The notes below the pieces were generated by a model. It saw only the letters and a list, made by a program, of their open reading frames with translations, did no database searches and had not been told where the DNA came from. Below, piece by piece: positions 6,563 through 32,239 of a stretch of 33,582 bases of DNA (its first letter is position 1; the number at the start of each line of letters is the position of its first letter). This DNA is from Candidatus Hydrogenedentota bacterium (GTDB lineage Bacteria > Hydrogenedentota > Hydrogenedentia > Hydrogenedentales > JAJRTN01), in assembly GCA_024278275.1 (NCBI GenBank), contig JAJRTN010000014.1, forward strand, positions 1-33,582. Reading direction: 5' to 3'. Made by a program: the position numbers and the translations under genes.

Positions 6563-7981
6563 CTACCGCGCGGGCTCAAGACGGCCCCGCGTCCGGGGAC
6601 GCCACCCGATGGTATCCCGGAAGAAGACCTGGAGTTCCGGCACCGTGAGTTGCCTGTCCCCATTGGTATCCGCCCGCCGCAGGCGCGTGCGGAGTTGCAC
6701 ATCCGGCAGTGCCCGCAGCTCATCGTAGCTCAAGGCACCGTCACCATCCCGGTCCGCCTGGCGGAAAATGTCGCGAAGCCGTGCGCCCCCCATGCCGGAC
6801 AGGCGTGTTTCCCCGGCCCGCGGCGTGGGTTTGACCGTAGTCGGTGGAGCAAAAGGCGACGGTCGCCCGGTGGCCTGGTCCGCCGGTCGAGGGGCGGCGG
6901 ACGGCTCTTCCCGTGAAACCGGCGCCGGGCGGGGATCAGTCCCGGCTTTCCCTTTCGCTTTGTCCTTGTCTGCCACGACCAACAGCCCAAGAAAAACAAG
7001 GGCGGCGATGATTACCCGGCGGCGCGTGAATATGCGGTGTTTTCTTACTTTCGCGGTGCCGTCGCCTTTTCGGGTTGACGTCGAGGGGGGAAGCACCTCC
7101 GCCTTCAGTTCCAATTGCGTCACGGCATGTAACGGAGACCGGCCCTGGCTCAGACGCCGCAGGTCGGACAGCACCTCCGATGCTGAAGCATAACGCCGCC
7201 AGGGCTCCTTGGCCAGCATGGCCTCGACGACCTGTCCCACCGGCACGGGCAGGTTGGGCACGCGCTCGGTGAGCGGAACCTGCACATCGCTGGTGATGGC
7301 GCGAACCAGCCCGGCGGGGGTGCTGGCATCGAAGGGGCGCACGCCCGCTAGGAGTTCATAGACCGTAATCCCCAGGGAGAAGATGTCGCTCTGCGGGCCG
7401 ATCTCCCCGATACCGCATTGTTCGGGAGACATGTATTGGGGCGTGCCGATAAAGGTGCCTTCCGTGGTGAGCTGGGTCGAGGCCTCGAGTACCTTCGCCA
7501 CGCCGAAATCCGTCACCCGAGCGCGGTTCTCGCGGTCCATGAGGATGTTCGCCGGCTTGATGTCCCGATGCACCACACCCTTTGTATGGGCGCAATGCAA
7601 CGCCGAGGCCACCTGTCCGCAGAGGGTCATGGCCCGGCGCCAATCCATGGCGCCCTCGCGGGCCATCCATTGGTCCAACGGGATACCATCGACATACTCC
7701 ATCACGATATAGGGAAGGCCCTTTTCACTGCCCACGGCATAGACGGAAACGATGTTGGGATGACTCAGCCGGGCCGCGGCCTTGGCCTCGCGTTCGAAAC
7801 GCCGCACCAGGGAATCGTCGCCGGACCGCGAAGGGTGCAGTACTTTGATGGCCACCTTCCGATCCAGCGAGTGGTCGCGCGCCAGGTAGACGGCCCCCAT
7901 GCCGCCGCGCCCCAGGCAACGGCGGATCTCATAAATACCCAGCCGGTGGCCGGGCCTGAAATCATCTCTTTCGACTGCCAT
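6563..7981 (-). CDS. Membrane-anchored Ser/Thr protein kinase with C-terminal EF-hand pair
   Basis: A Hanks-type kinase fills residues 16-275 (numbered from the ATG at 7981): glycine loop LGRGGMGAVY, Lys46 in VAIKVLH, HRDIKPAN with catalytic Asp140, DFG with Asp158, and GTPQYMSPEQ. A short hydrophobic segment (about 323-337) follows an RRR cluster and should cross the membrane. A Pro/Ala-rich linker leads to two EF-hand loops, residues 410-421 (D-x-D-x-D-G...E) and 438-449 (D-x-N-x-D...E), outside the membrane by this topology. This suggests a kinase gated by external calcium, which is inference. The start is uncertain: 7981 lacks a well-spaced ribosome-binding site, and a GTG at 8068 preceded by AGGGGGAAGG would add 29 residues. 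Confidence 0.9.
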   Translation of the reverse strand: MAVERDDFRPGHRLGIYEIRRCLGRGGMGAVYLARDHSLDRKVAIKVLHPSRSGDDSLVRRFEREAKAAARLSHPNIVSVYAVGSEKGLPYIVMEYVDGIPLDQWMAREGAMDWRRAMTLCGQVASALHCAHTKGVVHRDIKPANILMDRENRARVTDFGVAKVLEASTQLTTEGTFIGTPQYMSPEQCGIGEIGPQSDIFSLGITVYELLAGVRPFDASTPAGLVRAITSDVQVPLTERVPNLPVPVGQVVEAMLAKEPWRRYASASEVLSDLRRLSQGRSPLHAVTQLELKAEVLPPSTSTRKGDGTAKVRKHRIFTRRRVIIAALVFLGLLVVADKDKAKGKAGTDPRPAPVSREEPSAAPRPADQATGRPSPFAPPTTVKPTPRAGETRLSGMGGARLRDIFRQADRDGDGALSYDELRALPDVQLRTRLRRADTNGDRQLTVPELQVFFRDTIGWRPRTRGRLEPAR

Positions 7982-8130
7982 ACCCTCGGTTCCGGCCTTT
8001 GTCCCTGCCTCATATAACCCGGTTTCCGGCCACGGGTTTCTCGCCGGGAAAGGCAATAGCCCCGGCACCCTTCCCCCTGTAAGCCTACCATGATTGCACG
8101 GAAGCGGGCGAACCCGGCCATTCCAGGGGG

Positions 8131-9446: not shown

Positions 9447-12400
9447 CTATCCCGCCGCGGGATGGACGGTTGCGGCGTTCCAGGCCTTCACGGTGACCCC
9501 GCTCAAGTCCTGACCGGGATCGCCCAGGGTGAAGGTTACGCGCCGGGTCTCCTGCGGGTAAAGGGAAAAGCTGTTATCCTCCAGGTAGGTCCCGTAGACG
9601 TAGGGGAAGTCATCGATGATCACGTTGAAAGCGGGGCGGTCGGCGGTGTTGGTGATCACGAACGCCCCCTCCGCGCCGTCCCGCTCCAGGCGGACCTCCA
9701 GCTTCACTTTGGGCAGGTTGAGCAGGCGCGCTTCCGCCAGGTTGCCGTAGGCCGCGAAGGCCTCCGGGGCGCGGTCGTGGGGCCAGCCCCAGGCCGGGAT
9801 TTCCTCCACCTTCTTTATGGCATCCGTCGTAACGTGGAAATTGAACCAGGACCACTGGTCCGAAAGGCGCGCGCCATCGCCGTCGCGCAGGGACACGGCC
9901 AGGAGGAAGGGCGTCACCTTGGCGGGGTCCAGGGTCAGGGCCAGTTGATCCAGTTCCACTCGTGTCGCCGTGGGGACGTTCTCCACGGGGTAGTCTTTGC
10001 GCCACAGTTCCTCCAGATCACTGCCGTAGATCACCACGCGGACCGTGGCGTGCTTCAGCGGCAGCGAGGAATCATTGGCCGCGTAAACCCCTGCGTGGAA
10101 CGTCTCGCCTGGTGCCCAGTCGTACCGGTCATACTGGACGAAGGCGGCACGGGGCGCGTAGAACTGCTTGGCCCGGTAGTAGGACAGCTTGGGGTAACCG
10201 TAGAACCCGACCACGCCCCAGGCCTGCCCGGGGAAGAGTTCGGTCATCTTGTAGAACCAGAGGCCGCCCTTGTTGAGGTAACTTCCGGCCCGTTGCAGGT
10301 TGGTGGCGAAGGCGATCTCGTCGCCCTGGGCCATCTGGCCGTACTCGATGTATTGCCGCCAACTGTTGATGGGGCCGTAGTCGGCGTAGCGCATGAGTTT
10401 CGCCATGTCGCCGTAGCCGAACTGGTTCATGTGCGACATGATCCCGCCGTCGTCCTGTGCCGGGAGCCAGGTCTCCAGCTTTTTTTTCGGCAGGTACCGG
10501 AGCGATTCCAGCCAGTTGCTCATAGTGGGCAGGCCGAATTCGCCGTACCACACGGAGGGGCTGTTCACGAAACCGCTGTCAATGGGCTGCCCATTATGGA
10601 ACACGCCCCAATTATGGAAACTGCCGCCCCAGGGACTGGTCCGGTGGAAGGGGCGCGTGCGGTCGTATTGCCGGCAGCGCCGCCCCACCAGCAACAGACC
10701 GTCGTCGTTGCCCGAGATCGCCACGTTCTCGTTGCCCCCGCCCCACATGACCAGCGACGGATGATTCCGGTTCCGCTTCACCACGGCGGTCACCTGCCGG
10801 TCGAGTACCGCCGGGTCGGTGAGGGGGAAATCCGGCGGCCCCCAGCAATAGGGGAACTCCTCGTAGACCATGAGGCCCTTCTCGTCGCAGAGGCGGTAGA
10901 AGGTGTCGGTTTCCACCATGCCGCCGCCCCAGCAGCGAAACATCTGGATGCCGCCGCGCCGGGCCGTTTCGAGGATGTGTTCATACTTGGCGGGGTCGCC
11001 CTGGAGCATGGGATCGGTCCAGCACCAGTTCGCGCCCTTGATGAACATGGGCACGCCGTTGATGACGAATTGCCAGCGGTAATCTTCCACGGCCTTTTGG
11101 CCGCGCAGGGGTTTCATCTCGATGGTGCGGATGCCGAAACGGGTGGTCTTCAGGTCCTTTCCGCCGATGCTTGCGCGCAGGTGGTAGAGCGGCTGGCCGC
11201 CGTAGTTCATGGGCCACCAGGCCTTGGCATGGGGCAATTCGATGACTGTCTCCCACCGGGCCTTGCCATAAGGCACGTTGATGGTGTTGGTGAAGGCCGT
11301 GAGCGGGCCGTCGAAGTTTGCCCCTTCCATCTCGAAGCGCACCGTGGTTCTTACCGATCCCGGAACACGGCTGTTGGTGTAGTACTCGACCGCCAGGGTG
11401 GCGCCATCGCCGCTGAGGACCTTCGTTTTCACGAAGGGCGCTTCGATCTCCACCTCGGGCACGGTTTCCAGGGTCACGCCGCGCCAGATGCCCATGGAGA
11501 CAAGGTGGCCATAGTGCCAGCCCCATCCCGGGCTTCCCTTGAGAATGCCGGTCCAGGCGTCGGGCACCGTATCGACGCAGACCACGAGTTCATTGGGCTT
11601 GTCGAAATAGAGCAACGGGGTCACATCGTAGGACGGTCCGCCGAACATGCCCTGGTGGTATCCCAGCGTATGGCCGTTGAGGTAGAAGGACGCGCCGTAG
11701 TCCACCCCGTCGAAGTAGAGGCGAATGTCCTCTCCCTTCCAGTCCGCGGGCACGTCGAAGGTGCGTGCGAACCACCAGTCCTGCTGTTCGATACGGGTTT
11801 TCCGGTGATGCCAGGCGAAGTCCTTCGGCCAGCCATGTTCGTGCAATTCCTTCCACGTGTTGTCGTCCCACAGGGGGTCCTCGATCTCACCCAGCTTGAG
11901 CAGGGCGTTCTGTACCGTCGTCGGCACCTGCACCGTGTACCAGTCGTCCCGCTTCGTCCCGTAAGCAAACCACTTTTCCGTGACGCCCTGGCGTTCCACG
12001 GCGGTGAGGCGGTTCTCTTTCGTCAAATCGGGACGCTTGAAGGGCGCGGCCCCTTTCATACGCCACGCGCCGTCGAGCGACAGCCGCTTCCCGGGCGTGG
12101 CCTTGGCGACCGGTGGGGCGGGCCTGGCCTCGGCCCGCATGACAGGCAGACGGCTTTCCGCCTCCACCGAGCGGTCCCCGTACAGCACCGCCGTTTCATA
12201 CCGTTCATCCATCACTTCGTCCAGAAAACGTTCCCCCTTTGGCATGGTCAGGTTGTCCACGATGGTTGCGTCACCCACGATACTTTCTCCCACGGCATTG
12301 GGGGTCACGCCGTCGTCGCTCACCACGTCAAAATGGAAGACGGCCACATTGCCCGCCGTCCCGGCCGGGCCTTTCGGCACCCGGCCCAAAAGCGTACCGT

Positions 12401-12947
12401 TCCCGCGACGGATGACCAACTCGTCCAGCGCGCCGGTCATGCGCAACGCTTCGTTGGGGATGGACGCCACGTGGACCGCCGGCGCGTCAAAGATCAGACG
12501 CTGAGCATAGCGCTTTTCCAGGACCAACGTACCATCCAGGTAAAGCTGGTAGCCTTGGTCTTCCAGGCGAAAGGCCAGAAAGAACCAGGTGTTAAGCGGC
12601 GGAACCACCGGACTTCGGCTGTCGCCCACCTGTGGAATGTAGACCGACAGTTGACCGGATCCCGCCGCGGTGTAGACCTCCCAGTGCCGTCCCGATTTCG
12701 GACCCGACGCCAGGATGATGTTGAAGGCATCAAACCGGTCCAGCCGCACCCAGCAGGAAAAGGTGACCGGTCTTTTCTCCAGCAACGCGCCGACGGGAAA
12801 CGACGCCGTCCGTCCCGCCGAGGCAAGATCCAGGGCCGTCCCGTACTTCCCGGACACCAGGCGGTGGTTACCGTCCGCCCGTGCCGTGCCCGCAACCACG
12901 AGGACCGTCAAGGCCAGTCCGATTCCTGCTTTCTGCCACACTTTCAT
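9447..12947 (-). CDS. Secreted GH2 glycosidase (beta-mannosidase-like) with N-terminal LamG/ConA-like domain
   Basis: An 1166-residue protein with a Sec signal (MKVWQKAGIGLALTVLVVAGTARA). Residues about 30-230 form a ConA/LamG-like beta-sandwich (TFSCWVRLDRF..., WFFLAFRLE..., YLDGTLVLE..., GALDELVI). From about 300 the GH2 modules follow: the sugar-binding jelly roll (LSLDGAWRM, FDGVDYGASFYLNG), immunoglobulin-like domains and a TIM barrel (NGVPMFIKGANWCWTD). The acid/base is predicted as Glu740 in WGGGNEN and the nucleophile as Glu803 in WYGEFGLP; both resemble the beta-mannosidase branch. Extra beta domains close the protein. It acts outside the cytoplasm on an oligo- or polysaccharide; linkage is uncertain. 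It diverges from the SGNH-GH5 gene across a 281-base region, suggesting shared control. Confidence 0.92.
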   Translation of the reverse strand: MKVWQKAGIGLALTVLVVAGTARADGNHRLVSGKYGTALDLASAGRTASFPVGALLEKRPVTFSCWVRLDRFDAFNIILASGPKSGRHWEVYTAAGSGQLSVYIPQVGDSRSPVVPPLNTWFFLAFRLEDQGYQLYLDGTLVLEKRYAQRLIFDAPAVHVASIPNEALRMTGALDELVIRRGNGTLLGRVPKGPAGTAGNVAVFHFDVVSDDGVTPNAVGESIVGDATIVDNLTMPKGERFLDEVMDERYETAVLYGDRSVEAESRLPVMRAEARPAPPVAKATPGKRLSLDGAWRMKGAAPFKRPDLTKENRLTAVERQGVTEKWFAYGTKRDDWYTVQVPTTVQNALLKLGEIEDPLWDDNTWKELHEHGWPKDFAWHHRKTRIEQQDWWFARTFDVPADWKGEDIRLYFDGVDYGASFYLNGHTLGYHQGMFGGPSYDVTPLLYFDKPNELVVCVDTVPDAWTGILKGSPGWGWHYGHLVSMGIWRGVTLETVPEVEIEAPFVKTKVLSGDGATLAVEYYTNSRVPGSVRTTVRFEMEGANFDGPLTAFTNTINVPYGKARWETVIELPHAKAWWPMNYGGQPLYHLRASIGGKDLKTTRFGIRTIEMKPLRGQKAVEDYRWQFVINGVPMFIKGANWCWTDPMLQGDPAKYEHILETARRGGIQMFRCWGGGMVETDTFYRLCDEKGLMVYEEFPYCWGPPDFPLTDPAVLDRQVTAVVKRNRNHPSLVMWGGGNENVAISGNDDGLLLVGRRCRQYDRTRPFHRTSPWGGSFHNWGVFHNGQPIDSGFVNSPSVWYGEFGLPTMSNWLESLRYLPKKKLETWLPAQDDGGIMSHMNQFGYGDMAKLMRYADYGPINSWRQYIEYGQMAQGDEIAFATNLQRAGSYLNKGGLWFYKMTELFPGQAWGVVGFYGYPKLSYYRAKQFYAPRAAFVQYDRYDWAPGETFHAGVYAANDSSLPLKHATVRVVIYGSDLEELWRKDYPVENVPTATRVELDQLALTLDPAKVTPFLLAVSLRDGDGARLSDQWSWFNFHVTTDAIKKVEEIPAWGWPHDRAPEAFAAYGNLAEARLLNLPKVKLEVRLERDGAEGAFVITNTADRPAFNVIIDDFPYVYGTYLEDNSFSLYPQETRRVTFTLGDPGQDLSGVTVKAWNAATVHPAAG

Positions 12948-13228: not shown

Positions 13229-15547
13229 ATGTGGACCACTTCCTGGCGATACATGATCGTCGCAATTTCACTACTGGCGATGACGGGGGCCACGGCCATG
13301 GATGATATCTATAAAGGGCTGGATGGGGACGCCATCCGGGCGCGGTCGGTGGTGGACATGGGGCAGGCGGCACGGGTGCAACGCGCGCTGGACAAGGCGC
13401 GGCGGGGCGGGAAGGTGGTCATTGGCGCCATCGGTGGCTCCATCACGGCGGGAGCCCGGGCATCCAAACCCGAGTTTCGCTGGGTGAACCGCGTGGCACA
13501 ATGGTGGATAGACACCTTTCCCCAGGCCGACATCAAGCTCGTCAACGCGGGCATCGGCGCCACCGGTTCGGACATCGGCGCACACCGGGTAAAAACGGAC
13601 CTCCTGAAGGACCGTCCCGATTTCGTCCTGGTCGAGTACGCCGTGAATGACAGCATCATCGCCACGCCGGACGAGATGCTGGAGGGCCTGCTGCGGCAGA
13701 TCCTGGCCATGCCCAACCACCCGGGCGCCATGATGCTCTTCACCATGAACAACCAGGGCCGGAACGTGCAGGCCCCGCATATCCCCGTGGGCCGGCATTA
13801 CGGCCTGCCCATGGTGAGCTACCGCGACGCCCTGTGGCCGGAGGTCGAGGCGGGGCGCGTGGCGTGGGACGACATCGGGGGGGACCACGTACACCCCAAC
13901 GACCGGGGCCATGCCATCTGCGCGGACTTGCTCATCAACGTGCTGAAACAGTGGCTGGATCAATTGCCCGATAGGGGCGCGCCCGACGTCCTTCCCCTCC
14001 CCGCGCCCCTCATCAGCGACCCCTTCGCGCGGACGGTCATGCGCAGCCGCGACAACCTGGCACCCCTGCGGAACGAGGGCTGGAGCCCCGCGCCGGGTGG
14101 CTTCTACGGGCGCGGCTGGGCGGCGGATACGCCGGGGAGCGTCATCGAGTTCGACGTGGAAGGCACGGCCATCGGCCTCATTTTCTGGCGCATCAAGGGA
14201 CCCTCGGGCATGGCCGAAGCGCAGGTGGACGACCGGCCGCCGGTGCGCCTCGATGCCTGGTTTAACGCCGACTGGGGTGGTTTCACACCCTTCCAGATGG
14301 TGGCGCGCGATCTCGAACCGGGCACGCACCGCCTCCGTGTCACCGTACTCGAGGAGAAAAACAAGCATAGCGACGGGCATCGCTTCGAGATACGCGGCAT
14401 TCCCTGCGGGGGTGCTTATGGGACACCCGTCGCTCTCCTCCGCGTGGGAGAAGATGGCACAATGCTCCGTGGCGGCACCCCTTACCGGGGCGTTGGGGTC
14501 AACTATTTCGACGCTTTTTTCCGCACCCTGCAAAACCCCGACGACACCAGCTACGACGCAGGCTTCGCCGAATTGGTCCAACGGGACATCCCTTTCGCCC
14601 GCTTCATGGCCTGTGGCTTCTGGCCCGTGGATTTCCGGCTCTACCGCGAAGACAAGGCGAAGTACTTCGCCCTGCTGGATGGGGTGATAGCAAGCGCGGC
14701 CAAGCATAAGGTGGGCCTTATCCCCAGCCTGAACTGGTACAACAGCTGTATTCCCGATATGGTGGGCGAACCGCGCAATGCCTGGGGAGACCCCGAGAGC
14801 AAGACCGTTCAGTTCATGCGGCAGTACGCCACGGAGGTGGTGTCCCGCTACGTGGATTTCCCCGCCATCTGGGCCTGGGAACTGGGCAACGAGTGGAGCC
14901 TCTCCGCCGACCTTCCCAACGCCGCCGAGTGGCGTCCCAAGATCGTGCCCCGGCTCGGAACGGCCACGTCGCGCAGCGAAAAGGACGACCTCACCACGGA
15001 CATGCTGCTCGCGGCCTTCAAGGAGTTTGCCCGTACCGTTCGCGCCATCGACCCCGTGCGCCCCATCACCACGGGCAACGCCGCGCCCCGTGAAATGGCC
15101 TCTCATTACCGCCGGGGCACCACCGGCTTCGACACCCGGGCGGAGTACCGGGCCAACCTGCTGGAGGTCACCCCCGACCCCTATGACCTGGTGTCCATCC
15201 ACTATTACCCCGAAACGCCTCAACCCCGCTTCAAGGAAAAAGAAACCTCCTTCGACGAACTGCTGGCCCTGAGCGGCGCGGCCTGCCGTTCCGCCCACAA
15301 GGCGCTTTTTCTCGGCGAATTCGGCGTGAGCAAGCAGGCCTTCGACGGCGATGCCGCGAAGATCCGCGCCCTTTTCCAGGACAGCCTTCACGACATCGTG
15401 AAAAGTGACGCCGCCCTGGCGGCCCTATGGGTTTTCGACCACGCCAACCAGGACAAAAGCTGGAATGTCACGGCGGACAACAACCGGGCCTGGATGCTCG
15501 ACGCCGTCGCCGAGGCGAACCGGCAGGTACGTGTCGTACAACCCTGA
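13229..15547 (+). CDS. Secreted SGNH-type esterase fused to a GH5-like glycosidase
   Basis: A 772-residue two-enzyme protein. A signal peptide (MWTTSWRYMIVAISLLAMTGATA) is followed by an SGNH/GDSL hydrolase: Ser71 in IGGSITAG, the Gly block NAGIGATGSDIG, Asn140 in EYAVND, and Asp219/His222 in DHVHP. A beta-sandwich segment (about 250-395) leads to a TIM-barrel glycosidase (about 410-770) with acid/base Glu555 in WELGNEWS and nucleophile Glu697 in FLGEFGVS, as in GH5 mannanase- or cellulase-like enzymes. The likely job is to strip acyl groups and cut the same glycan chain outside the cytoplasm. The ATG at 13229 has GAGGG upstream; the frame is open further 5' but looks non-coding. The GH2-like gene follows after 17 bases, so the two are probably co-transcribed. 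Confidence 0.9.
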   Translation: MWTTSWRYMIVAISLLAMTGATAMDDIYKGLDGDAIRARSVVDMGQAARVQRALDKARRGGKVVIGAIGGSITAGARASKPEFRWVNRVAQWWIDTFPQADIKLVNAGIGATGSDIGAHRVKTDLLKDRPDFVLVEYAVNDSIIATPDEMLEGLLRQILAMPNHPGAMMLFTMNNQGRNVQAPHIPVGRHYGLPMVSYRDALWPEVEAGRVAWDDIGGDHVHPNDRGHAICADLLINVLKQWLDQLPDRGAPDVLPLPAPLISDPFARTVMRSRDNLAPLRNEGWSPAPGGFYGRGWAADTPGSVIEFDVEGTAIGLIFWRIKGPSGMAEAQVDDRPPVRLDAWFNADWGGFTPFQMVARDLEPGTHRLRVTVLEEKNKHSDGHRFEIRGIPCGGAYGTPVALLRVGEDGTMLRGGTPYRGVGVNYFDAFFRTLQNPDDTSYDAGFAELVQRDIPFARFMACGFWPVDFRLYREDKAKYFALLDGVIASAAKHKVGLIPSLNWYNSCIPDMVGEPRNAWGDPESKTVQFMRQYATEVVSRYVDFPAIWAWELGNEWSLSADLPNAAEWRPKIVPRLGTATSRSEKDDLTTDMLLAAFKEFARTVRAIDPVRPITTGNAAPREMASHYRRGTTGFDTRAEYRANLLEVTPDPYDLVSIHYYPETPQPRFKEKETSFDELLALSGAACRSAHKALFLGEFGVSKQAFDGDAAKIRALFQDSLHDIVKSDAALAALWVFDHANQDKSWNVTADNNRAWMLDAVAEANRQVRVVQP

Positions 15548-15564
15548 CCAGACAGGTACACATC

Positions 15565-18468
15565 ATGATTACGTCGTTGCTCCTATCGGCCCTTCTTTCC
15601 GCCGGAGGCGATGCGCCGCTCCCGGCATCACCCCGCCTCGAAATCCTGCTCAACGGCTCCTGGCAGTATGCGCCGGGGGATGTGGGCTGGTTCTCGGATA
15701 CCTCCCTCCGTGTGCGGGTGCCCGGCGCGTTTCAGCACGACGACATGGTGCAGGAAGTCTGTGCCTGGTACCGTCGCACCTGGAACCTGCCCGACGCGCT
15801 TCGGGATGACGGCGCGCGCTGGTTGCTCCGTTTCGACAAGGCGGGCTGGTACACCCGGGTCGATGTGAACGGCACCATGGTCGGCGAAAACTACGGCTCT
15901 TACGTGCCCTTCGAGTTCGAGGTCACGAAGGCCCTTCGTTTCGGGGAAGAAAATGAACTGAAGGTCTTCGTCCACGCCGCGGATTCGACCCACACCCTTC
16001 CCGGCGAAACCATTGACGACCTCCACCGGGTGATGGGCTTTCGCACCGGCGGGCGGCACAACCGGAACTGGGTGCAGATTGCCGGCGACGTCACCCTGGA
16101 GAAGCGTCCCGCCCACGGCATCGCCTACCACCGGGTTGAGACCTCGGTTCGTAACAAGACCCTTCGTATCGTGGGTGAATTGTCCTGTCCGCCCGGTACG
16201 GACCCCCTGCAAGCCTCGGTACACGACCTCGAGACGGGTAAAAAGGTTCTGGATACAGAGCTGGAAGTGGGGGAGACGTTCGAGGTCACCCTCCCTTGGG
16301 CCGATCCCATCCTGTGGGGCTTTGGCCCCTACGGCACACCCCACCTCTACGCCCTCCGGCTGGTCCTCCAGGACCAGGACGGCGGCACGGTGGACACGGT
16401 GGTCTCCCGCTTCGGTTTTCGCGAGCTTTGGTACGAGGGGCAAACCCTTCTCTTCAACGGCAAGCCCTTCATGATGACGGCGGCCACGATCCCCTACGAC
16501 TTCACCCCCCTCCCGCCGTACCTTTATCCCTACGGCATGTTCGAGCCGCACCAGTTCACCCGCTGGTGCCAGGCCTTGCGCGCCCACGGCTGGAATGCCG
16601 TTCACAACCACTTCGATTCCTTCGGCACGGGTATCTATGACGTGGCCGATGAATTGGGCATGCCCGTGGTGGCGGGCCTTTACTGCGCGGGGGCGAGCTG
16701 GTTGACGCCAAACTCCAAGGTGGACCCACGCTGGCCCGCCTTCATGCACGATCAAACCAAGGCCTGGACCAAGGCCATCGCCGGCCATTCCAGCGTGGTC
16801 CTGTACAGTCTGATCGACGGCGTTCCCGGTCCTTCCCCCGAATGGCCCCTCGACAAGATTCATGCCCAACTCGACGAGGCGGGCGCCATCCGTGCCATTG
16901 ACGAAACCCGGCCCATCGTCGGTGGCGACGTGGACTTCGTCAAGCAGGGGATTGCCAAGATTCGCGAGGAAGCGGCGCGTTCCTTCCAGGACAACGGCCA
17001 CCCGCGCTTCATCAAGGAGGTGTGGGCCGTGGACGCGGGGAGTGGCTACGCCACGAAGGCCATGCCGGGCTTCCTCGCCTTCATGGAGAAAGAAAAGATC
17101 AGCGGATTCGTCTCCTTCGGCAAGAGCTTCCCTACCTTCCCCTTCCACGTGACGTGGCCCTCGGACACGGGGCGGGGGATGCGGTGGCAGGCGCGGTTCG
17201 CCCCCGCGGGCTTTACCGGCTGGCTCAACTGGTGCGACCCGGACCAGCCACTGCATCAACCCAGCGACGTGGGGGACCTCCTCAAGGAGCAGTACGTGGC
17301 GCGCTGGGGAAGCCCCGGCGAAACGGAGCCATGGGTCTACCCCGACATCCTGAGCGAGTCCCACGGAGCGGACACCGCCCTCGTGGGCATTGAATCCCTG
17401 GTCCTGCCCGGCGCGCCCCTCCGTTTCACCCCGGTGGACAGCGCGGGGAATGCCATGCTCCACGTCTCCTATCCCGGCGCGGTGCGTCTCCATGCCCTGG
17501 GCTCCGGCCCCCACCGAACGATGACCCTGGACGCGCCCCGCCGACGCCTCCCCTACGCACCCGGTTACCAGGAAGTCCTGACCGCCAACTGGCCCGCGAC
17601 CGTGCCGTCCCCCGTGGCGATTCGTCTCGAAGGCACGGAAAACGCACAGCATTTCCCCCTGCTCAAGATCCACCTTCAGCGCAATGGCCAGGACGCGGGA
17701 TATGTCAACGTGCGTTTTCCCGAGGCCATTCAGGCCACGGATACGGCGAGAAGGCAGGTACTCAAGTTCTACCAGGACGTGTGGAGTCCCGAGTGGCCCG
17801 CCCACCTGGCGTGCGAACCCGTGGACCTGCCGGTGCGGTGGGACACCACGGATGGACGGGTGGCGTACACCATGCAACTGGACAACGGCATGGTCCTTCA
17901 TGCCTCGGCAACGGTGACCGGCGCCGTGGTCACCCTGCGTTACGATCTCGAGAACCACACGCCCCTGACCCTCGAAGAGGTAGGCATCTGGAATTGCATT
18001 CAGATGCAGCTTGCGCCACCCCTGGATGATCCCCTCATGGACCGAACCTACTGCTGGACGGACCGGGGTTTCCAGTTGATGCGCTCGCTGGTGCCCGGTT
18101 TTCGACCCTACACGCGGGACCAGGCGGTAAACCGCCGCTTCAGCGCCTATCTGCCCGGCATCCCGAAACCTTACCCGGAAAACCCCTACATTGTTCCTCA
18201 TCCGGGACACCCCGACGACCCCGATCAACGCATCTGGTTCTGGACCGTTACCAATCCCATACCCCGCGCCGCCATCGCCACGGTCTCGAAGGACGGTACC
18301 TGGGCGGCCCTGACGCAAGGGAAAGGCGCCCGGGGCGTATGGACCAACCCCGGTATCTCCTGCCACCATGCCGACCCCGTTGGGAAACCGTTGCCCCCCA
18401 AAGGCAGACTGACCATCAGCAACACCCTGCGTTTCGTGGAGGGGAGTTTGCCGGCCCGGTTGGATTGA
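15565..18468 (+). CDS. Secreted GH2-like protein without the usual acid/base residue
   Basis: A 967-residue protein with a short signal sequence (MITSLLLSALLSAGG). It has GH2 architecture: a sugar-binding jelly roll (LLNGSWQYAPGD..., WYRRTWNLP..., DVNGTMVGENYGSYVPFEFEVT), a beta-sandwich, then a TIM barrel starting LLFNGKPFMMTA. Where active GH2 enzymes read SLGNE or similar after HPSVVLYS, this one reads HSSVVLYSLIDGVPG; the position of the acid/base Glu is occupied by Asp-Gly (418-419). A Glu in IKEVWAVDAG (485) could stand for the nucleophile. Large C-terminal beta domains follow. It may be a binding protein, use another residue, or belong to an unassigned family near GH2. It starts 17 bases after the SGNH-GH5 stop and is translated in the same operon. 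Confidence 0.85.
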   Translation: MITSLLLSALLSAGGDAPLPASPRLEILLNGSWQYAPGDVGWFSDTSLRVRVPGAFQHDDMVQEVCAWYRRTWNLPDALRDDGARWLLRFDKAGWYTRVDVNGTMVGENYGSYVPFEFEVTKALRFGEENELKVFVHAADSTHTLPGETIDDLHRVMGFRTGGRHNRNWVQIAGDVTLEKRPAHGIAYHRVETSVRNKTLRIVGELSCPPGTDPLQASVHDLETGKKVLDTELEVGETFEVTLPWADPILWGFGPYGTPHLYALRLVLQDQDGGTVDTVVSRFGFRELWYEGQTLLFNGKPFMMTAATIPYDFTPLPPYLYPYGMFEPHQFTRWCQALRAHGWNAVHNHFDSFGTGIYDVADELGMPVVAGLYCAGASWLTPNSKVDPRWPAFMHDQTKAWTKAIAGHSSVVLYSLIDGVPGPSPEWPLDKIHAQLDEAGAIRAIDETRPIVGGDVDFVKQGIAKIREEAARSFQDNGHPRFIKEVWAVDAGSGYATKAMPGFLAFMEKEKISGFVSFGKSFPTFPFHVTWPSDTGRGMRWQARFAPAGFTGWLNWCDPDQPLHQPSDVGDLLKEQYVARWGSPGETEPWVYPDILSESHGADTALVGIESLVLPGAPLRFTPVDSAGNAMLHVSYPGAVRLHALGSGPHRTMTLDAPRRRLPYAPGYQEVLTANWPATVPSPVAIRLEGTENAQHFPLLKIHLQRNGQDAGYVNVRFPEAIQATDTARRQVLKFYQDVWSPEWPAHLACEPVDLPVRWDTTDGRVAYTMQLDNGMVLHASATVTGAVVTLRYDLENHTPLTLEEVGIWNCIQMQLAPPLDDPLMDRTYCWTDRGFQLMRSLVPGFRPYTRDQAVNRRFSAYLPGIPKPYPENPYIVPHPGHPDDPDQRIWFWTVTNPIPRAAIATVSKDGTWAALTQGKGARGVWTNPGISCHHADPVGKPLPPKGRLTISNTLRFVEGSLPARLD

Positions 18469-18840: not shown

Positions 18841-21363
18841 TTGACACACAGGATCAACACAATGACGGTTTTACCATTTCCCCTCACGCTCATGCTTTCC
18901 TTTTTGCTTGCGGCCGGTGGTGTATGGGCCGAGGATCAATCCCCGGCACGCAAACCGGACGCCCCGGATGCAATGGAGGGCCGTACCATGGCGGAAGCGT
19001 TTGCGGAGAAGTTCAGCCGAATCACAGCCGATGAAGGCGTACCCTTCGCCGGTAAGGCGGCTCCGCCCGAAGGCGGCCTCACCCTGTGGTATCGCCAACC
19101 GGCCAGGGCCTGGGAGGAGGCCCTTCCCGTGGGCAATGGCCGGCTGGGCGCGATGGTTTTCGGCCAAGTGCGGGGTGAACGGATTCAACTCAACGAAGAA
19201 ACGGTCTGGGACGGCTATCCCCGCGACACGACCAATCCGAAAGCCCTCGAAGCCTTGCCCGAAATGCGGCGACTCCTTTTCGCCGGGAAGAACGAGGAAG
19301 CCACCCAACTTGCCAGGGCCACCATGCTGGCCGTGCCCGAACGCATCCACTCCTACCAGTCGCTGGGCGACCTGCGGCTGATCCTGCCCGGGCACGCCAA
19401 GATTGCGGACTACCGGCGCACGCTGGATCTCGACACGGGTATCGCCTCCGTGAGCTACCTTGCCGGCGAGATTCGACACGTGCGCGAGGTCTTCGCCTCC
19501 GCGCCCGCCCAGGTAATCGCCGTGCGCCTCACGGCGGATCGCCCCGCGTCGGTGAGCTTCGAGGCGGCATTCACCCGCTAGCAGGATGCCCAATGCCTGA
19601 GCAAGGGGGAGAACAAGCTGATCCTGCGCGGGCGGATCAACCGCGCCAGGGCGGAGACGGGAGAACCCGCTGGGCTGCGATTTGAAGCACAATTGGTGGC
19701 CTTGTCCCGAGGCGGGACCGTGACCAACCGCGATGGTGTGCTGAAAATCGAAGGAGCTGATTCGGTGCTGCTGCTCATCGCGGGCGCGACCAATTACCGT
19801 GGCGGCGATGCGGCGGAAAAATGCGCGGCCCGGCTGCGCGACGCCATACGGATTCCCTACGAACAACTGCGGGCGGAACATCTCGCCGATCACCGGGCGT
19901 TGTTCCGGCGGGTTTCCCTCGACCTGGGGGCCGGTCCGAATGCCACGCTTCCCACGGACCAGCGGCTGGAAACCCTGAAGCAGGGCGGGGACGATCCCCA
20001 ACTGGCCGTCCTGTACTTTCAATACGGCCGTTACCTGCTCATGGGCAGTTCGCGACCGGGATGCCTGCCCGCGAATCTCCAGGGCCTCTGGAACGAGCAC
20101 ATGAACGCCCCCTGGAACAGCGATTACCACACGAACATCAACCTGCAAATGAATTACTGGCCCGCCGAGGTGACCAATCTTTCCGAATGCCACCTGCCGC
20201 TTTTCGACTACTTGGACGCCCTCGTGCCTTCGGGGGAAAGGACGGCCCGGGTCCATTACGGCGCGCGCGGCTGGGTGGTCCACCACCTGAGCGACATCTT
20301 CGGGTTCACGGCGCCCGCCGACGGCGTCTGGGGAATCTGGCCCATGGGCGCGGCCTGGCTGTGTCAGCACCCCTACGAGCACTATCTCTTTACGGGCGAC
20401 AAGGACTTTCTCGCGAAGCGCGCCTATCCGCTGATGAAAGGCGCGGCCCTCTTCATGCTCGACTTCCTGGTGGAGGATCCCGAAGGACGCCTCGTGACAA
20501 ACCCCTCCCATTCCCCGGAAAACAGGTTCCGCAAGGCCGACGGGACGGAGTCCATGTTTACCTACGGCGCCACCATGGATCTCATGATCGTCCACGAACT
20601 CTTCACGAATTGTATTGAAGCCGGCAAGACGCTGGGCATTGATGCGGCTTTCCGCGCCGACCTGGAATCGGCGCTCAGCCGGCTTGCCCCGCTGCAAATC
20701 GCGCCGGACGACGGGCGCCTCAAGGAGTGGATCGAGGACTACGACGAACCCGAACCCGGCCACCGGCACATGTCGCATTTCTACGGCTTCCACCCCGGAC
20801 ATCAAATCACGCTGTCCGGAACGCCCGACCTGGCGGCGGCCTTGCGCAAGTCGCTTGAGTATCGGCTGAGCCACGGCGGCGGTCACACCGGCTGGAGCCG
20901 GGCCTGGATCATCAGCTTCTGGGCGCGCTTCCTCGAAGCCGAGAAGGCCCATGAAAACCTGCGGGCCCTGCTCTCCCAGTGCACGCTGCCCAACCTTTTC
21001 GACACCCACCCGCCGTTCCAGATTGACGGCAACTTCGGCGGCACCGCCGGCATCGCCGAAATGCTCATCCAGAGCCACGCCGGGGAAATCCATTTGCTTC
21101 CCGCCCTGCCCCGCGCCTGGGCCAACGGCTCCTTCAGGGGCCTTCGTGCCCGTGGCGGTTTCGAGGTGGATCTCGCGTGGCGCGCCGGCAAGCCCATTTC
21201 GGGGACCATTCTCTCCACCATCGGCGGCCCCTGTCCGTTACGATGCGACGGTCCGCTGCAGGTCCGGCGCGACGGGGTGCCCATCCCGCTTGAAGCCTCC
21301 GGCGGTGGGCTTCATCGCTTCGACACCCGGCCGGCCCAACGCTACCAGCTCGTCTTCGAATAG
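18841..21363 (+). pseudogene. GH95 alpha-L-fucosidase/galactosidase family gene with one in-frame amber stop
   Basis: An 841-codon frame carries a single TAG at 19579-19581 (codon 247); no other stop occurs, so both parts are in the same frame. Family signatures are strong: LWYRQPARAWEEALPVGNGRLGAMVFG near the N-terminus, [52 protein letters not shown] (predicted acid Glu region), GHTGWSRAW and [11 protein letters not shown] (Asn and Asp of the inverting mechanism). A signal peptide starts it. The TTG at 18841 is favoured over the ATG at 18862: AAGGAGG lies 7 bases upstream and it adds the positive residues a signal peptide needs. The family removes terminal alpha-1,2-L-fucose, or galactose, from glycans. 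The stop would leave only the N-terminal beta domain unless read through or a sequence error. Confidence 0.9.
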
Positions 21364-21533: not shown

Positions 21534-22691
21534 ATGTCCGGCCACCGCAAATCCCTGCACATCGCCGCCTGCGGTGCCATGTTCGTCTATGCCGTCTCCG
21601 TGGTGGCCATGCCCATTTGCCTGCTCCAGATGAAGGCGGACCTGGGTTTCCAACTCACCGGTGGCGGGGCGCTCGAGGCCGGGCGCACCGTGCTCCTCCT
21701 GGCCATGCTGCTCATCAGCGGTTGGGCGGCCATGCGCTGGGGCAAGGTGCGGCCCCTAGCCATCGGCCTATACATCACCGGCGCGGGCCTTGCCCTGCTC
21801 TCCCAATGCCACACCTACACCGCCGCCATGGCCTGCATCATGTTCATCGGCGCCGGCAGCGGCCTCGTGGAAGCCCTTGTCAACCCCCTCGTGCAGGATC
21901 TCCATCCCCGGGACGCCGGACGCTACCTTAACATCACCAACGCCTTCTTCTCTTTCGGGATCATGGGCGGCACCCTGCTCATGGGCGAAGCCCTCACGCG
22001 GGGGATGAGTTGGCGCGCCATCATGATGGCCCTCGCCGGCGCCAGCCTGGCCTGCGGCTTCCTCTTCACCTCCGCCCGCAAAGCATCCCTGCCCCCCTCC
22101 GCGCATAGCGTGGGCCACATCACCGCCATCCTCCACGACCGGCGCTTCTGGTACTTCGGCATGGCCATGGTCTGCGCCGGGGCGACCGAAGCGTCCTACA
22201 CCTTCTGGAGCGCCACCTACGTTCAGCTTCACTTCGACGAACTGCCTCGCGCCGGGGCCTTCGCCACCGCCCTCTTCGCCGGGTCCATGGCCGTGGGCCG
22301 CCTGGCCTGCGGCAAGGCCGCCCACTACGTCTCGCTCCCCCGAATCATCCTGGCTTCCGCCCTGGTCGGCGCCCTTGTCGCCATCATGCCCGCCTTCGTC
22401 GAAAGCGTCGGGATGTTTTACCTTTCCCTCGTGCTGGCAGGTTTCTCCGTGGCCTGTTTCTGGCCCACCATCCAGGCCCACGCCGCCGCCACCATGGAGG
22501 TCGATTCCACGCTGCTTTTCATCTTTCTCTCCTGCCTCGGCATCCCCGGCTACGGATTCATCTCCCTCCTTATGGGCATCATCGGCGACGCCGCCGGGCT
22601 GCAGAAAAGCTTCCTCATCGTCCCCGGGCTTTTCCTCACCCTCGCCGCCGGCATGTTTTTCGCCGAGAAATCAGAGAAACGCAACGCCTGA
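21534..22691 (+). CDS. MFS sugar permease-like transporter
   Basis: A 385-residue inner-membrane protein with about 12 hydrophobic segments. The start, MSGHRKSLHIAACGAMFVYAVSVVAMPICLLQMKADLG, and the first cytoplasmic loop RWGKVRPL are typical of the major facilitator superfamily; the overall form is like fucose/glucose permeases (FucP-related). The ATG at 21534 follows GAAGG. A TATAAT at 21491-21496 could serve as -10, but the nearest TTGA box is 22 bases upstream of it, so a separate promoter is uncertain. It lies downstream of the GH95 gene on the same strand and plausibly imports the released sugar. Substrate is inferred from context only. Confidence 0.85.
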   Translation: MSGHRKSLHIAACGAMFVYAVSVVAMPICLLQMKADLGFQLTGGGALEAGRTVLLLAMLLISGWAAMRWGKVRPLAIGLYITGAGLALLSQCHTYTAAMACIMFIGAGSGLVEALVNPLVQDLHPRDAGRYLNITNAFFSFGIMGGTLLMGEALTRGMSWRAIMMALAGASLACGFLFTSARKASLPPSAHSVGHITAILHDRRFWYFGMAMVCAGATEASYTFWSATYVQLHFDELPRAGAFATALFAGSMAVGRLACGKAAHYVSLPRIILASALVGALVAIMPAFVESVGMFYLSLVLAGFSVACFWPTIQAHAAATMEVDSTLLFIFLSCLGIPGYGFISLLMGIIGDAAGLQKSFLIVPGLFLTLAAGMFFAEKSEKRNA

Positions 22692-28551: not shown

Positions 28552-30537
28552 TTACTCCCGCCGACGGTGAAACCGCACGTGGTCCCGTTCGCGGATGTAG
28601 CAACGCACGCCGTCGTCCACCTCCGTCTTGAACACGGTGCCCGGGGGCTGTTCCGATGGGTCTTCCGTCACAACTTCGAGATAAATGGAAACGCCCTCGT
28701 CGAAGTGTCCGATGGCGCGCGCACCCAGGCTCTCGTCCTCGGGCCGCTCCAACACCTCGACCTGGAAATCCTCGCCAAGCCGATCCGTCACGGTTCGGAA
28801 TTCGTGCAGCGTGTCCTCGGCCCGCTTGCGGTAATCCTCGGCATACCGAACGCGCTGGCTGATTTTGCGTAACTCCATCGTGACAAAGCCCGACTTCAGC
28901 CGTGAGGCGATGGGGCCCTCCGTCTGCTGTTGCAAGGTGGGCAGCACGCGCTGCAGGACTTCGAGTTTCGACGCGCCTTTCCCGCTGCTTTCAACGAGCT
29001 TTTCGTAAGGCTCCAGCGTCTGGATTGATTTTTCCTTCCGCTCGAGTTCCACCAGCGCGGCGCGCTTCTCCTCTTCCACGTGTTCGAGTTTCGCCGCGGT
29101 CTGCTGCATGATGAGCGTGCGCTGCTTACGGTCCAGTCCTCGGGCCCGCAAACGTTCGCGCAGTTTTACGGCATCTTCATGTTCTTTCCTCAAATCATCG
29201 TCCACCGGATCGGAATCGTCGAAGAGGGCAAGGCTTTCGCTTTGAAGGTCGGGGGCGGTCGATGTTTCCCGCCGTGTGAGCCCGTCCCGTGCGGTTTCCA
29301 ACAGGTCACGCAAGTTGTTTTCGATACGGTTGAGAATCTCGATCCGCCGTTGACAACGCATGAGCGAACCGAGTTTCCGATGGGCTTCCCCGCTGCCGAA
29401 AACGTACATGAGAACCGATTGTGCCGACCGTTCGGCCTCGTTTTGGGCCAGGTTTCCCACGGCCTCGAAATGATGCGCCACGCTTCGCAAACGGTAGGCC
29501 CGTGACAGGAGTTTCTTCAGCTCCGCGCCGGTGACCTCACCAAAGTCCTCGCAGTTCAGTTCGCGGCGCAGCACCACGGAAAGCGTATTGGCCCCCAGGT
29601 GCCGGAAGTGCTTGGCCTGAACCAGTTCTGAAACCTGGATCCGGCCTCCACGCACATCGTTGCCCACATCCATCTTGCGGGCAATGTAATTCCCCAGCAT
29701 GGTGTCACCGGCGATGGACAACCGTCGTCCGGCGAAAACCAGCTTGGGGCCCTGGGCGCTTTGGCAATATACGCTGCCCATTTTCGCGATGACCTGGGCG
29801 TTGTTGATGATGCTGCGTGCCCGAATATCACCGTGGAGCACGACCGCCACGCCGGAGATATTCCCCCGGATTTCGCATTGTCGCTTCGACAATACACGCC
29901 CCATAACATAACCATCGACGCAGCAATGCCCCGCGCCTTCCACCACGACCGTGCTGCGTTCGGGAACATCGCCCAGGACGCGCAGATGGCAGGACGCACT
30001 CAAAACAGGCCCCCGGCAGGGAAGTTCGATTCCCGCGAGCAACCGGGTATCGCGCACGGGCGCCTGAAGGATGTCCGCTTCCGTGACATATTGGATCAGG
30101 CCGCTCAAATCGGGGAGATGGGGGGTGGGCCGGATTCCCTCGCAACGCTGAATGAGCCGATCCCTGCTGCGTCTCAGCAGACGTTCAACCCGGGCAAAGC
30201 GTTCGGGATTCACCACCTGCGTCAGAAGGCGATCCACGGCGTGGAGGAAAAAGACCTCGCTGTTGCTCAGCGCATCGAGACCTTTGCGCTGAATCCTGGA
30301 AACCGCCTCGCGCAGGAACATCTGCTGGCGACGCCCGGCGGTGGACTCCACGGCGGCGGGCTCCGCCTGTTGCCAGCAGACCACCCGATCCCGCAGCGCC
30401 TTCACGCGCCCCGCTTCTTCCCCATCCCCGTCACACGATTCCAGCCAGGCCTGACAAAGGGCCATGTCCTGCAGGAGCAACTGCGCACAGAAATTCTCCG
30501 GTTGCTCCAACACATACTCGACAAGCCGCTCAAGCAA
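28552..30537 (-). CDS. FapA/DUF342-like polymer-forming protein with coiled-coil tail
   Basis: A 661-residue cytoplasmic-looking protein. The N-terminal third is helical and unassigned. A DUF342/FapA beta-helix lies at roughly residues 180-310: repeated short strands such as VLGDVPERSTVVVEGAGHCCVDGYVMGRV, IRGNISGVAVVLHGDIRARSIINNAQVIAKMGSVY and KLVFAGRRLSIAGD. A long, charged coiled coil (about 340-560) and a small C-terminal domain follow. FapA-like proteins can form scaffolds near the membrane; function is otherwise poorly known. TTG at 30537 is chosen because AGGAG lies 9 bases upstream and no ATG or GTG precedes it in the open frame. The sulfatase gene is 126 bases upstream on the same strand, probably unrelated. 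Confidence 0.75.
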   Translation of the reverse strand: MLERLVEYVLEQPENFCAQLLLQDMALCQAWLESCDGDGEEAGRVKALRDRVVCWQQAEPAAVESTAGRRQQMFLREAVSRIQRKGLDALSNSEVFFLHAVDRLLTQVVNPERFARVERLLRRSRDRLIQRCEGIRPTPHLPDLSGLIQYVTEADILQAPVRDTRLLAGIELPCRGPVLSASCHLRVLGDVPERSTVVVEGAGHCCVDGYVMGRVLSKRQCEIRGNISGVAVVLHGDIRARSIINNAQVIAKMGSVYCQSAQGPKLVFAGRRLSIAGDTMLGNYIARKMDVGNDVRGGRIQVSELVQAKHFRHLGANTLSVVLRRELNCEDFGEVTGAELKKLLSRAYRLRSVAHHFEAVGNLAQNEAERSAQSVLMYVFGSGEAHRKLGSLMRCQRRIEILNRIENNLRDLLETARDGLTRRETSTAPDLQSESLALFDDSDPVDDDLRKEHEDAVKLRERLRARGLDRKQRTLIMQQTAAKLEHVEEEKRAALVELERKEKSIQTLEPYEKLVESSGKGASKLEVLQRVLPTLQQQTEGPIASRLKSGFVTMELRKISQRVRYAEDYRKRAEDTLHEFRTVTDRLGEDFQVEVLERPEDESLGARAIGHFDEGVSIYLEVVTEDPSEQPPGTVFKTEVDDGVRCYIRERDHVRFHRRRE

Positions 30538-30663: not shown

Positions 30664-32046
30664 TTACTCGTGATCCCATTTCAGGATCCAGGGGTCCTTC
30701 GTGCGTTCCTGGAAGGCCTTGAGCTTTGCCTTCATGGCCGCCAGCAATTCCCCGTGCTTCGGCTCATCGGCGAGGTTCTGCAACTCGTCGGGGTCCTCCT
30801 GGAGGTCGTACAGCTCGAAGGCCGGACGCTTGATATAGGCGTCCACGGAGCGCTGGGCGTAGAGTTCCTCCTTGCGCTCGATGATCCCTTGCCAGGTGGT
30901 GGATTCCCACAAATCGGAGGCGAAGGGATACTCCAAACCATGGGCGATGTTCCAGATCAGTTTGTAGCGCCGCCCGCGCACGACACGCATGGGGTAGTAC
31001 ATGGTGATCTCGTGGAAGGTGTGCGAGGCATACACCTCGTCGAAACCCTCGGGCGATTCTTCTTCGAGGACGGAAAGGAACGACGGGCCGTGGAAGGCAT
31101 GGTCCGCCGGCAATGCGCCGCAGAAATCGAGAATGGTGGGCGTGATGGAGGTCCAGTCCACGAGCGCGTCGCAGGTATGGCCCTTCTTTTCCTGGTAGGG
31201 GCTGCGTACGACGCAGGGCAAACGCATGCCCGGTTCGTAGAGATTGGTCTTGGCCCCGGGAAAGGCGATGCCGTTGTCGGAAATGTAGATTACCATGGTG
31301 TTGTCCCACTGGGCCGTCTCTTTCAGCACCTCAATAAGGCGCAGCAGTCCCCTGTCGGCGCGTTCGACGGACATGTAATACCGGGCGAGTTCCTCGCGGC
31401 ATTCGGGGGTGTCGGGCAGGTAATCCGGAACGATGACCTCCTCGGGCGATATGGGCCGTGAGCCTTCGTGGTGAAAGGGGCGGTGGGGCTCGGTGGTGCA
31501 GAGATAAAGGAAGAAGGGCTGGTCTTCGTCCCCGGTGATAAAGGCGCGGCTGTTCTCGGCCATCTGCTCGGGTGATCCCCCTTTCAGCACCCGCTCGAAG
31601 TGATAGACCGCTTCCGGCGCCACGTGGTACTTGCCGACGCGTGCGGTTCGGTAGCCGGCCTGGCCCAGGAAATACGGCAGGCTTTTCACATGGGGGAAGG
31701 ACACGAAGTGATGGTAGGCGTGGGCATGGCCGTATTGTCCCGTGGCGTGGTTGTGCCAGCCCGTGAGAATCACCGACCGGCTCGCACTGCACGAGGGTGT
31801 CGTGCAGAAACCGTTCCGGAAGCGTGTCCCCGCGCCCGCCAACTGGTCAAGTCCCGGCGTGTGAATCACGGGATTGCCGTAGCATCCCGCATCGTCCGTG
31901 CCTTGGTCGTCCACCACGTAGAGCACCACGTTGGGCCGCTTCTTCTTGTCACGCGCGGTGGCCGCGCCCTGGGTCAATGCCGCGGCCGCCGTTCCCGCGC
32001 TAACACCTTTCATGAATGTCCTCCTCGAAATACCGTCCGCCGTCAT
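30664..32046 (-). CDS. Tat-exported S1-family sulfatase
   Basis: A 460-residue type I sulfatase. A twin-arginine signal (GISRRTFMKGVSAGTAAAAL) starts it. The catalytic loop is Cys86-Ser-Ala-Ser-Arg90 followed by SVILTG; the Cys is converted to formylglycine by a separate enzyme. Metal-binding and substrate residues lie in NVVLYVVDDQGTDD, KYHVAPE, HRPFHHE and YISDNG. The C-terminal FELYDLQEDPDELQNLADEP is typical of the family, and the overall pattern recalls heparan N-sulfatase-like members. It would remove sulfate from glycans outside the cytoplasm and fits the hydrolase locus, though it lies 8 kb from it. ATG at 32046 has AAGGAG 9 bases upstream. Substrate unknown. Confidence 0.95.
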   Translation of the reverse strand: MTADGISRRTFMKGVSAGTAAAALTQGAATARDKKKRPNVVLYVVDDQGTDDAGCYGNPVIHTPGLDQLAGAGTRFRNGFCTTPSCSASRSVILTGWHNHATGQYGHAHAYHHFVSFPHVKSLPYFLGQAGYRTARVGKYHVAPEAVYHFERVLKGGSPEQMAENSRAFITGDEDQPFFLYLCTTEPHRPFHHEGSRPISPEEVIVPDYLPDTPECREELARYYMSVERADRGLLRLIEVLKETAQWDNTMVIYISDNGIAFPGAKTNLYEPGMRLPCVVRSPYQEKKGHTCDALVDWTSITPTILDFCGALPADHAFHGPSFLSVLEEESPEGFDEVYASHTFHEITMYYPMRVVRGRRYKLIWNIAHGLEYPFASDLWESTTWQGIIERKEELYAQRSVDAYIKRPAFELYDLQEDPDELQNLADEPKHGELLAAMKAKLKAFQERTKDPWILKWDHE

Positions 32047-32239
32047 TGCCCCGATCTCCTTCCTGGTTCATGCGTGACCTGCCGGCCACGCCGGGATTAT
32101 CAAGTCAGCCGGTTCAGCCTACGCCGTTATCCCATCCAAAGCAAAACCGCAGCCCCGATCGAGGATTTTTTGATTGCCCTATGAGAGCTTTCATGCTAGT
32201 ATTGGCAGCATAGTGTACGAATGGGAGGTCGTGGGGCGT

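Follow-up and report, generated by a model that had tools for sequence, protein, structure and literature searches.

Few enzymes are known that remove the 2-O groups of mannose, and those of family CE17 belong to them. The structurally solved member closest to the protein studied here, RiCE17 of Roseburia intestinalis, is represented in the PDB by entries 6hfz and 6hh9 (PMC9487903), whose titles describe a two-domain esterase active on acetylated mannans. RiCE17 combines an SGNH domain with a substrate-clamping CBM35. It works with Ser41, Asp190, His193 and Asn110, to which the CBM35 adds Trp326, and the specificity of CE17 is for the 2-O-acetyl groups of beta-mannans (PMC13276840). To date CE17 has been described only in Bacillota, according to that article, and a review places the action of CE2 and CE17 in the cytoplasm, after import of oligosaccharides (PMC12098361). 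GH5 enzymes joined to other catalytic modules have already been described (PMC3526467). One of the closest precedents is Cel5C-CE2 of Clostridium thermocellum, a cellulase and an acetyl esterase in one chain, whose esterase favours acetylated glucomannan over xylan (PMC2661963).

We analysed a window of 33,582 nucleotides, a stretch of contig JAJRTN010000014.1 from a Candidatus Hydrogenedentota bacterium, that carries a gene encoding a CE17-like esterase fused to a mannanase-like GH5 barrel (Table 1). The mechanical ORF is longer and begins at GTG 13055. ATG 13229 has AGGGA seven bases ahead of it and gives a signal-peptide-like N terminus, RYMIVAISLLAMTGATA. This start agrees with the secreted chain proposed in a first-pass annotation of the DNA, and export of the protein is predicted from it. 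The catalytic residues were located by motif, Ser71 in GGSIT, Asp219 and His222 in GDHVHPND, Glu555 in WELGNE and Glu697 in LGEFG, so that both catalytic sets named in the annotation are present with exactly the same numbering. An antisense ORF of 706 residues (13271-15391) was dismissed as a gene, as all homology sits in the plus-strand protein; antisense frames are open because third-position GC is high.

Table 1. Coordinates of the fusion gene, its domains and its neighbours in the window
Feature	Positions	Strand	Basis
Fusion gene, 772 aa, ATG to stop: signal-peptide-like start, then a CE17-like esterase of SGNH domain and CBM35-like lid, then a mannanase-like GH5 barrel	13229..15547	+	
Signal-peptide-like N terminus, residues 1-23 ending in ATA, without a lipobox Cys	13229..13297	+	Sequence and hydropathy
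SGNH esterase domain, ~residues 40-250; Ser71, Asn140, Asp219, His222	13346..13978	+	Pfam Lipase_GDSL_2 9.9e-15; 6hfz alignment
Beta-sandwich, CBM35/CBM6-like, probable esterase lid, ~residues 281-392; Trp349 = RiCE17 Trp326	14069..14404	+	
GH5 (beta/alpha)8 barrel, residues 401-772; acid/base Glu555, nucleophile Glu697	14429..15544	+	
Divergent neighbour: Laminin_G_3 + GH2 with mannosidase-type Ig domains; WGGGNEN and GEFG motifs present	9447..12947	-	
Second GH2-like protein, 17 bases downstream of the fusion gene; LIDGV at the expected NE acid/base motif	15565..18468	+	
GH95 gene, all three GH95 domains, in-frame TAG at 19579-19581	18862..21363	+	
MFS transporter	21534..22691	+	

In the N-terminal half, Pfam recognised only a GDSL-type hydrolase. 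Alignment with the RiCE17 structures reaches further: residues 41-376 match residues 11-353 of the 6hfz/6hh9 chain with an E value of 4.2e-57, which covers both RiCE17 domains at about 30% identity. As read from this alignment, S41, N110, D190, H193 and W326 of RiCE17 correspond to S71, N140, D219, H222 and W349. The first four of these are conserved in all 18 aligned rows (hits shorter than 250 residues or weaker than 1e-40 were dropped), and W349 is conserved in all 17 rows that reach the position, one more row being truncated. The full-length structure model was poor over the N-terminal half because its alignment held only one relative of this half, and modelling of the half alone, from two sequences, gave a low pLDDT of 51.6. 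A Foldseek search with that low-confidence model returned 6hfz/6hh9 in places 1 to 7, with CBM6 and CBM35 modules lower down, a result that serves only to support the sequence match. Since the RiCE17 match spans both domains and W349 is aligned, the beta-sandwich most likely forms the esterase's lid instead of a linker. The annotation had described an SGNH esterase joined to the glycosidase by a beta-sandwich. The SGNH fold and the sandwich are indeed there, but the esterase is more exactly CE17-like, with both RiCE17 domains matched, and the sandwich belongs with it, most likely as a CBM35-like lid.

The C-terminal half is a GH5 fold of mannanase-like type. Among solved chains, phmmer gave 8d89 as the best match, over residues 422-714 (E 3.3e-25), followed by GH5 mannanases and one GH158 enzyme. 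A profile built from 25 relatives retrieved 8d89 at 7.9e-52, and the other eight hits were all mannanases. The structure model of residues 401-772 was confident, with pLDDT mostly around 90, and its alignment by VIA-align gave 8d89 a Z score of 43.5 over 345 residues (rmsd 2.4), compared with 32.1 for the runner-up; rows 2 to 28 were mannanases or mannosidases throughout. Thus, 8d89 is the closest solved chain by sequence and by fold, at about 24% identity. This entry, which stems from a capybara gut metagenome, was deposited as a "GH5 endo-mannanase", and we take it to be the first GH5_57 structure. Besides the catalytic Glu pair, the clan-A conserved residues of GH5 are Arg, Asn, His, Tyr and Trp; R458, N554, E555, Y660, E697 and W734 are conserved in all 35 rows of the alignment (hits shorter than 250 residues or weaker than 1e-25 dropped), and H658 in 34 of them. 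The GH5 fold proposed by the first-pass annotation is confirmed by the structure comparison, and the loss of catalytic residues for which it proposed to check was seen in neither half. As to the subfamily that it asked to have assigned, GH5_57 is a candidate, with 8d89 as nearest solved chain; the Pfam model PF00150 did not match the window domain at E 0.001, whereas it matched 24 of the 25 alignment members and, at 5e-8, the full-length relative described below.

A second GH5 of the same type occurs elsewhere in the same genome (L002 1048-4014, minus strand, 52% identical), where a PASTA domain and a TSP3 repeat are part of its chain. Four other GH5 relatives from Hydrogenedentota (L008, L009, L011 and L012) have a conserved C-terminal extension of about 300 residues that has no Pfam match.

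We determined the distribution of the fusion by scanning one genome per species, 84,980 species in all, with six short peptides. Of the 19 loci found, a single one, L005 from a Pirellulaceae MAG, spans both halves. It has the same domain order and the same junction, is open throughout and is 71% identical over the full length. A full-length match occurred in 1 of the 68 genomes of the window's order, which make up all of its phylum among the genomes scanned, and in 1 of 241 genomes of the L005 family (at most the four best candidates scored per genome), these being the window's own genome and that of L005. Samples of two further groups gave 0 of 387 and 0 of 392 genomes with at most the two best candidates scored per genome. 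No relative of the N-terminal half was found in viral contigs, and 3 of 72,556 plasmid records had weak partial matches, none covering 80%. Close N-terminal halves (E 1e-90 or better) are found in 8 of the 68 genomes of the phylum and C-terminal halves (1e-60 or better) in 32. The halves are widespread separately, and the fused form, seen only in the window genome and the L005 MAG, appears rare. Six of the eight genomes with an N-terminal half have both (hypergeometric P 0.095, or 0.157 without the window genome), which is not significant, and co-occurrence of the separate halves was dismissed as functional evidence.

Comparison of the window gene with the L005 gene gave pS of 0.61 and pN of 0.17 for the N-terminal half and 0.58 and 0.19 for the C-terminal half, corresponding after Jukes-Cantor correction to dN/dS of about 0.15 and 0.19, respectively. 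As pN is well under pS in both, both halves are maintained under purifying selection. The RiCE17 and 8d89 matches, the full-length relative and this selection put the gene and its fusion beyond chance. That two neighbouring genes were joined by an assembly or frameshift artefact is a possibility of almost no weight, even though the halves are separate genes in other genomes and the window comes from a draft of 200 contigs. L005 comes from an independent assembly and shows the same fusion, the two form one clade in the trees of both halves, drawn from the 18 and 35 rows used for the residue counts (support 100/100 for the N-terminal and 100/99 for the C-terminal half), and in all 11 genomes that have both halves as separate genes these lie on different contigs.

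In both trees this clade is nested among sequences of the window's order, with support of 93/97 and 98/93 for the N- and C-terminal halves, respectively. This nesting suggests a single fusion event in the window's order, followed by a transfer, or else a misplaced L005 contig. The surroundings of L005 differ from those of the window gene: an ABC transporter lies upstream and a 913-residue gene without assignment downstream, and synteny was dismissed, since not one of the window's 18 remaining genes had an L005 match at 1e-8. A glutamate dehydrogenase on the L005 contig is 78% identical in two members of its family, at most 65% in the other matching members, and up to 73%, over nearly the full length, in the window's order. 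For the neighbouring transporter gene, the one match outside its own genome is weak (36%) and comes from another member of the L005 family. With such matches, the assignment of the contig to Pirellulaceae may be correct, or the contig may have been misplaced.

The genes around the fusion give a mixed picture. The first-pass annotation had viewed two GH2-type proteins, GH95 and MFS as partners in a compact glycan-utilisation locus without a SusC/SusD pair. The divergently encoded GH2 keeps its motifs and has beta-mannosidases as its best solved relatives (E 4e-44), and the transporter is present. The second GH2-like protein looks impaired and is possibly a non-catalytic or altered GH2, as judged from the sequence at the acid/base position. 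The TAG codon in the otherwise complete GH95 gene may reflect a pseudogene, a sequencing error or readthrough. Because the GH95 frame is interrupted and the second GH2 lacks the NE motif, the glycan locus is at best partly intact, and its different counterpart around L005 also argues against a compact unit. For SusD, the annotation's statement extends beyond the window: the whole genome, which is 96% complete, gave 0 matches to the SusD-like model PF07980, by which a control Bacteroides genome was matched.

Among described systems, RiCE17 shares with the window protein the SGNH plus CBM35 plan and the aligned triad, oxyanion Asn and lid Trp, but it is free-standing, whereas the window protein is fused to a GH5, has a signal-peptide-like start and occurs outside Bacillota. 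The fold and the aligned catalytic residues of the C-terminal half are those of 8d89; in contrast, besides the low identity, the deposited chain of 405 residues carries no esterase module. Cel5C, which presumably belongs to GH5 given the family number in its gene name, likewise shares its chain with an acetyl esterase. Unlike that cellulase with its C-terminal CE2, however, the window protein combines an N-terminal CE17-like esterase with a mannanase-like GH5. L005 has the same arrangement in a different gene neighbourhood. In the literature searched, which lay outside most subscription journals, we found no report of a CE17-GH5 fusion. To judge from its sequence, the protein is a new arrangement of known parts, a CE17-like module with a signal-peptide-like start on a mannanase-like GH5 outside Bacillota, because the sources cited above know CE17 from Bacillota only (PMC13276840) and place it in the cytoplasm (PMC12098361).

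We consider it likely that the protein is secreted and bifunctional, both of its enzymatic modules acting on acetylated beta-mannan. The annotation had left the substrate among mannans, xylans and fucosylated glycans, and the choice narrows to acetylated beta-mannan because the esterase, the GH5 and the adjacent GH2 all point there. After export from the cytoplasm, a strand of acetylated mannan would be clamped under the W349 lid, the CBM35-like beta-sandwich closing over the sugar chain. Ser71, acting with His222 and Asp219 and with Asn140 in the oxyanion hole, would attack the axial 2-O-acetyl group on mannose and release acetate, and the freed backbone would then be cut by E555 and E697 with retaining cleavage. 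Finally, the divergently encoded GH2 would break the oligosaccharides down to mannose. Mannanases are less active on acetylated substrate, and in one study addition of a CE2 esterase made a GH5 mannanase about 30% more active on konjac glucomannan (PMC10492685). A more specific proposal is that the CE17 clamp and the GH5 cleft act in order on one strand outside the cell, deacetylating and then cutting it as part of the primary attack, although 2-O-deacetylation is a cytoplasmic step in the gut bacteria studied, and that a single fusion event in Hydrogenedentota was followed by transfer of the whole fused gene to another phylum; we put this forward very tentatively, as a possible but doubtful account.

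Both modules could be active, but on another beta-linked glycan such as a mannan-like polysaccharide that is algal or sulfated; the esterase would then take off other O-acetyl groups. GH5 relatives in two other genomes are fused to a sulfatase (L094 885-4346) or flanked by two (L096 363-5411), the window itself has a sulfatase at 30664-32046, and in a different CE17-like fusion from another genome a CE17-like domain shares its chain with a GH43/GH32-like module (L097 642-3710); the wider families may therefore serve other glycans. The family is distant from characterised enzymes, and its identity to them, about 24-30%, is low enough for a shift in specificity. This alternative is nevertheless unlikely, since the close solved relatives of both halves are all mannan-active and the divergent GH2 is nearest to beta-mannosidases.

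As regards the mode of action, the GH5 half might be an exo-acting beta-mannosidase, because the exo-mannosidases 4lyp, 7odj and 1uuq score about as well in VIA-align as GH5_7 endo-mannanases, with Z of 29-30. We doubt this, given that the clear best match was deposited as an endo-mannanase and that most of the remaining profile hits are endo-mannanases; an endo mode would thus fit better. It is also conceivable that the GH5 does the chemistry and the esterase module chiefly binds the substrate, in the way that the CE2 module of Cel5C-CE2 binds cellulose; there, a GH5 is joined to an SGNH esterase that uses its active site for binding as well (PMC2661963). However, that CE2 is itself an active esterase, as the same source states, and in the window protein the catalytic set, the oxyanion Asn and the lid Trp are conserved in all rows with residues there and dN/dS is low in the esterase half, making a mainly binding role quite improbable.

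If the two modules of the proposed mannan-degrading enzyme work as predicted, a natural secreted CE17-GH5 chain outside Bacillota would extend the CE17 family and be a case of deacetylation linked to the initial cut of the backbone. It could also provide a single protein ready for use on softwood or konjac mannan, and it offers a functional guess for a large family of GH5 proteins often encountered in Hydrogenedentota (32/68 genomes).

Other genes of the window have features of their own. The sulfatase has a TAT signal and is flanked by ORFs of 661 residues (28552-30537, minus strand) and 370 residues (32114-33226, minus strand) that have no Pfam or NCBIfam match. An Eco57I-type N6 adenine methylase with a TaqI-like specificity domain and weak likeness to BREX PglX is encoded at 250-2457 on the plus strand. 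At 6563-8068 on the minus strand, a Ser/Thr protein kinase (Pkinase, 1.2e-53) has an EF-hand region at its C-terminal end (PF00036 in two stretches, 6.6e-10), an arrangement like that of calcium-dependent kinases, here in a bacterium.
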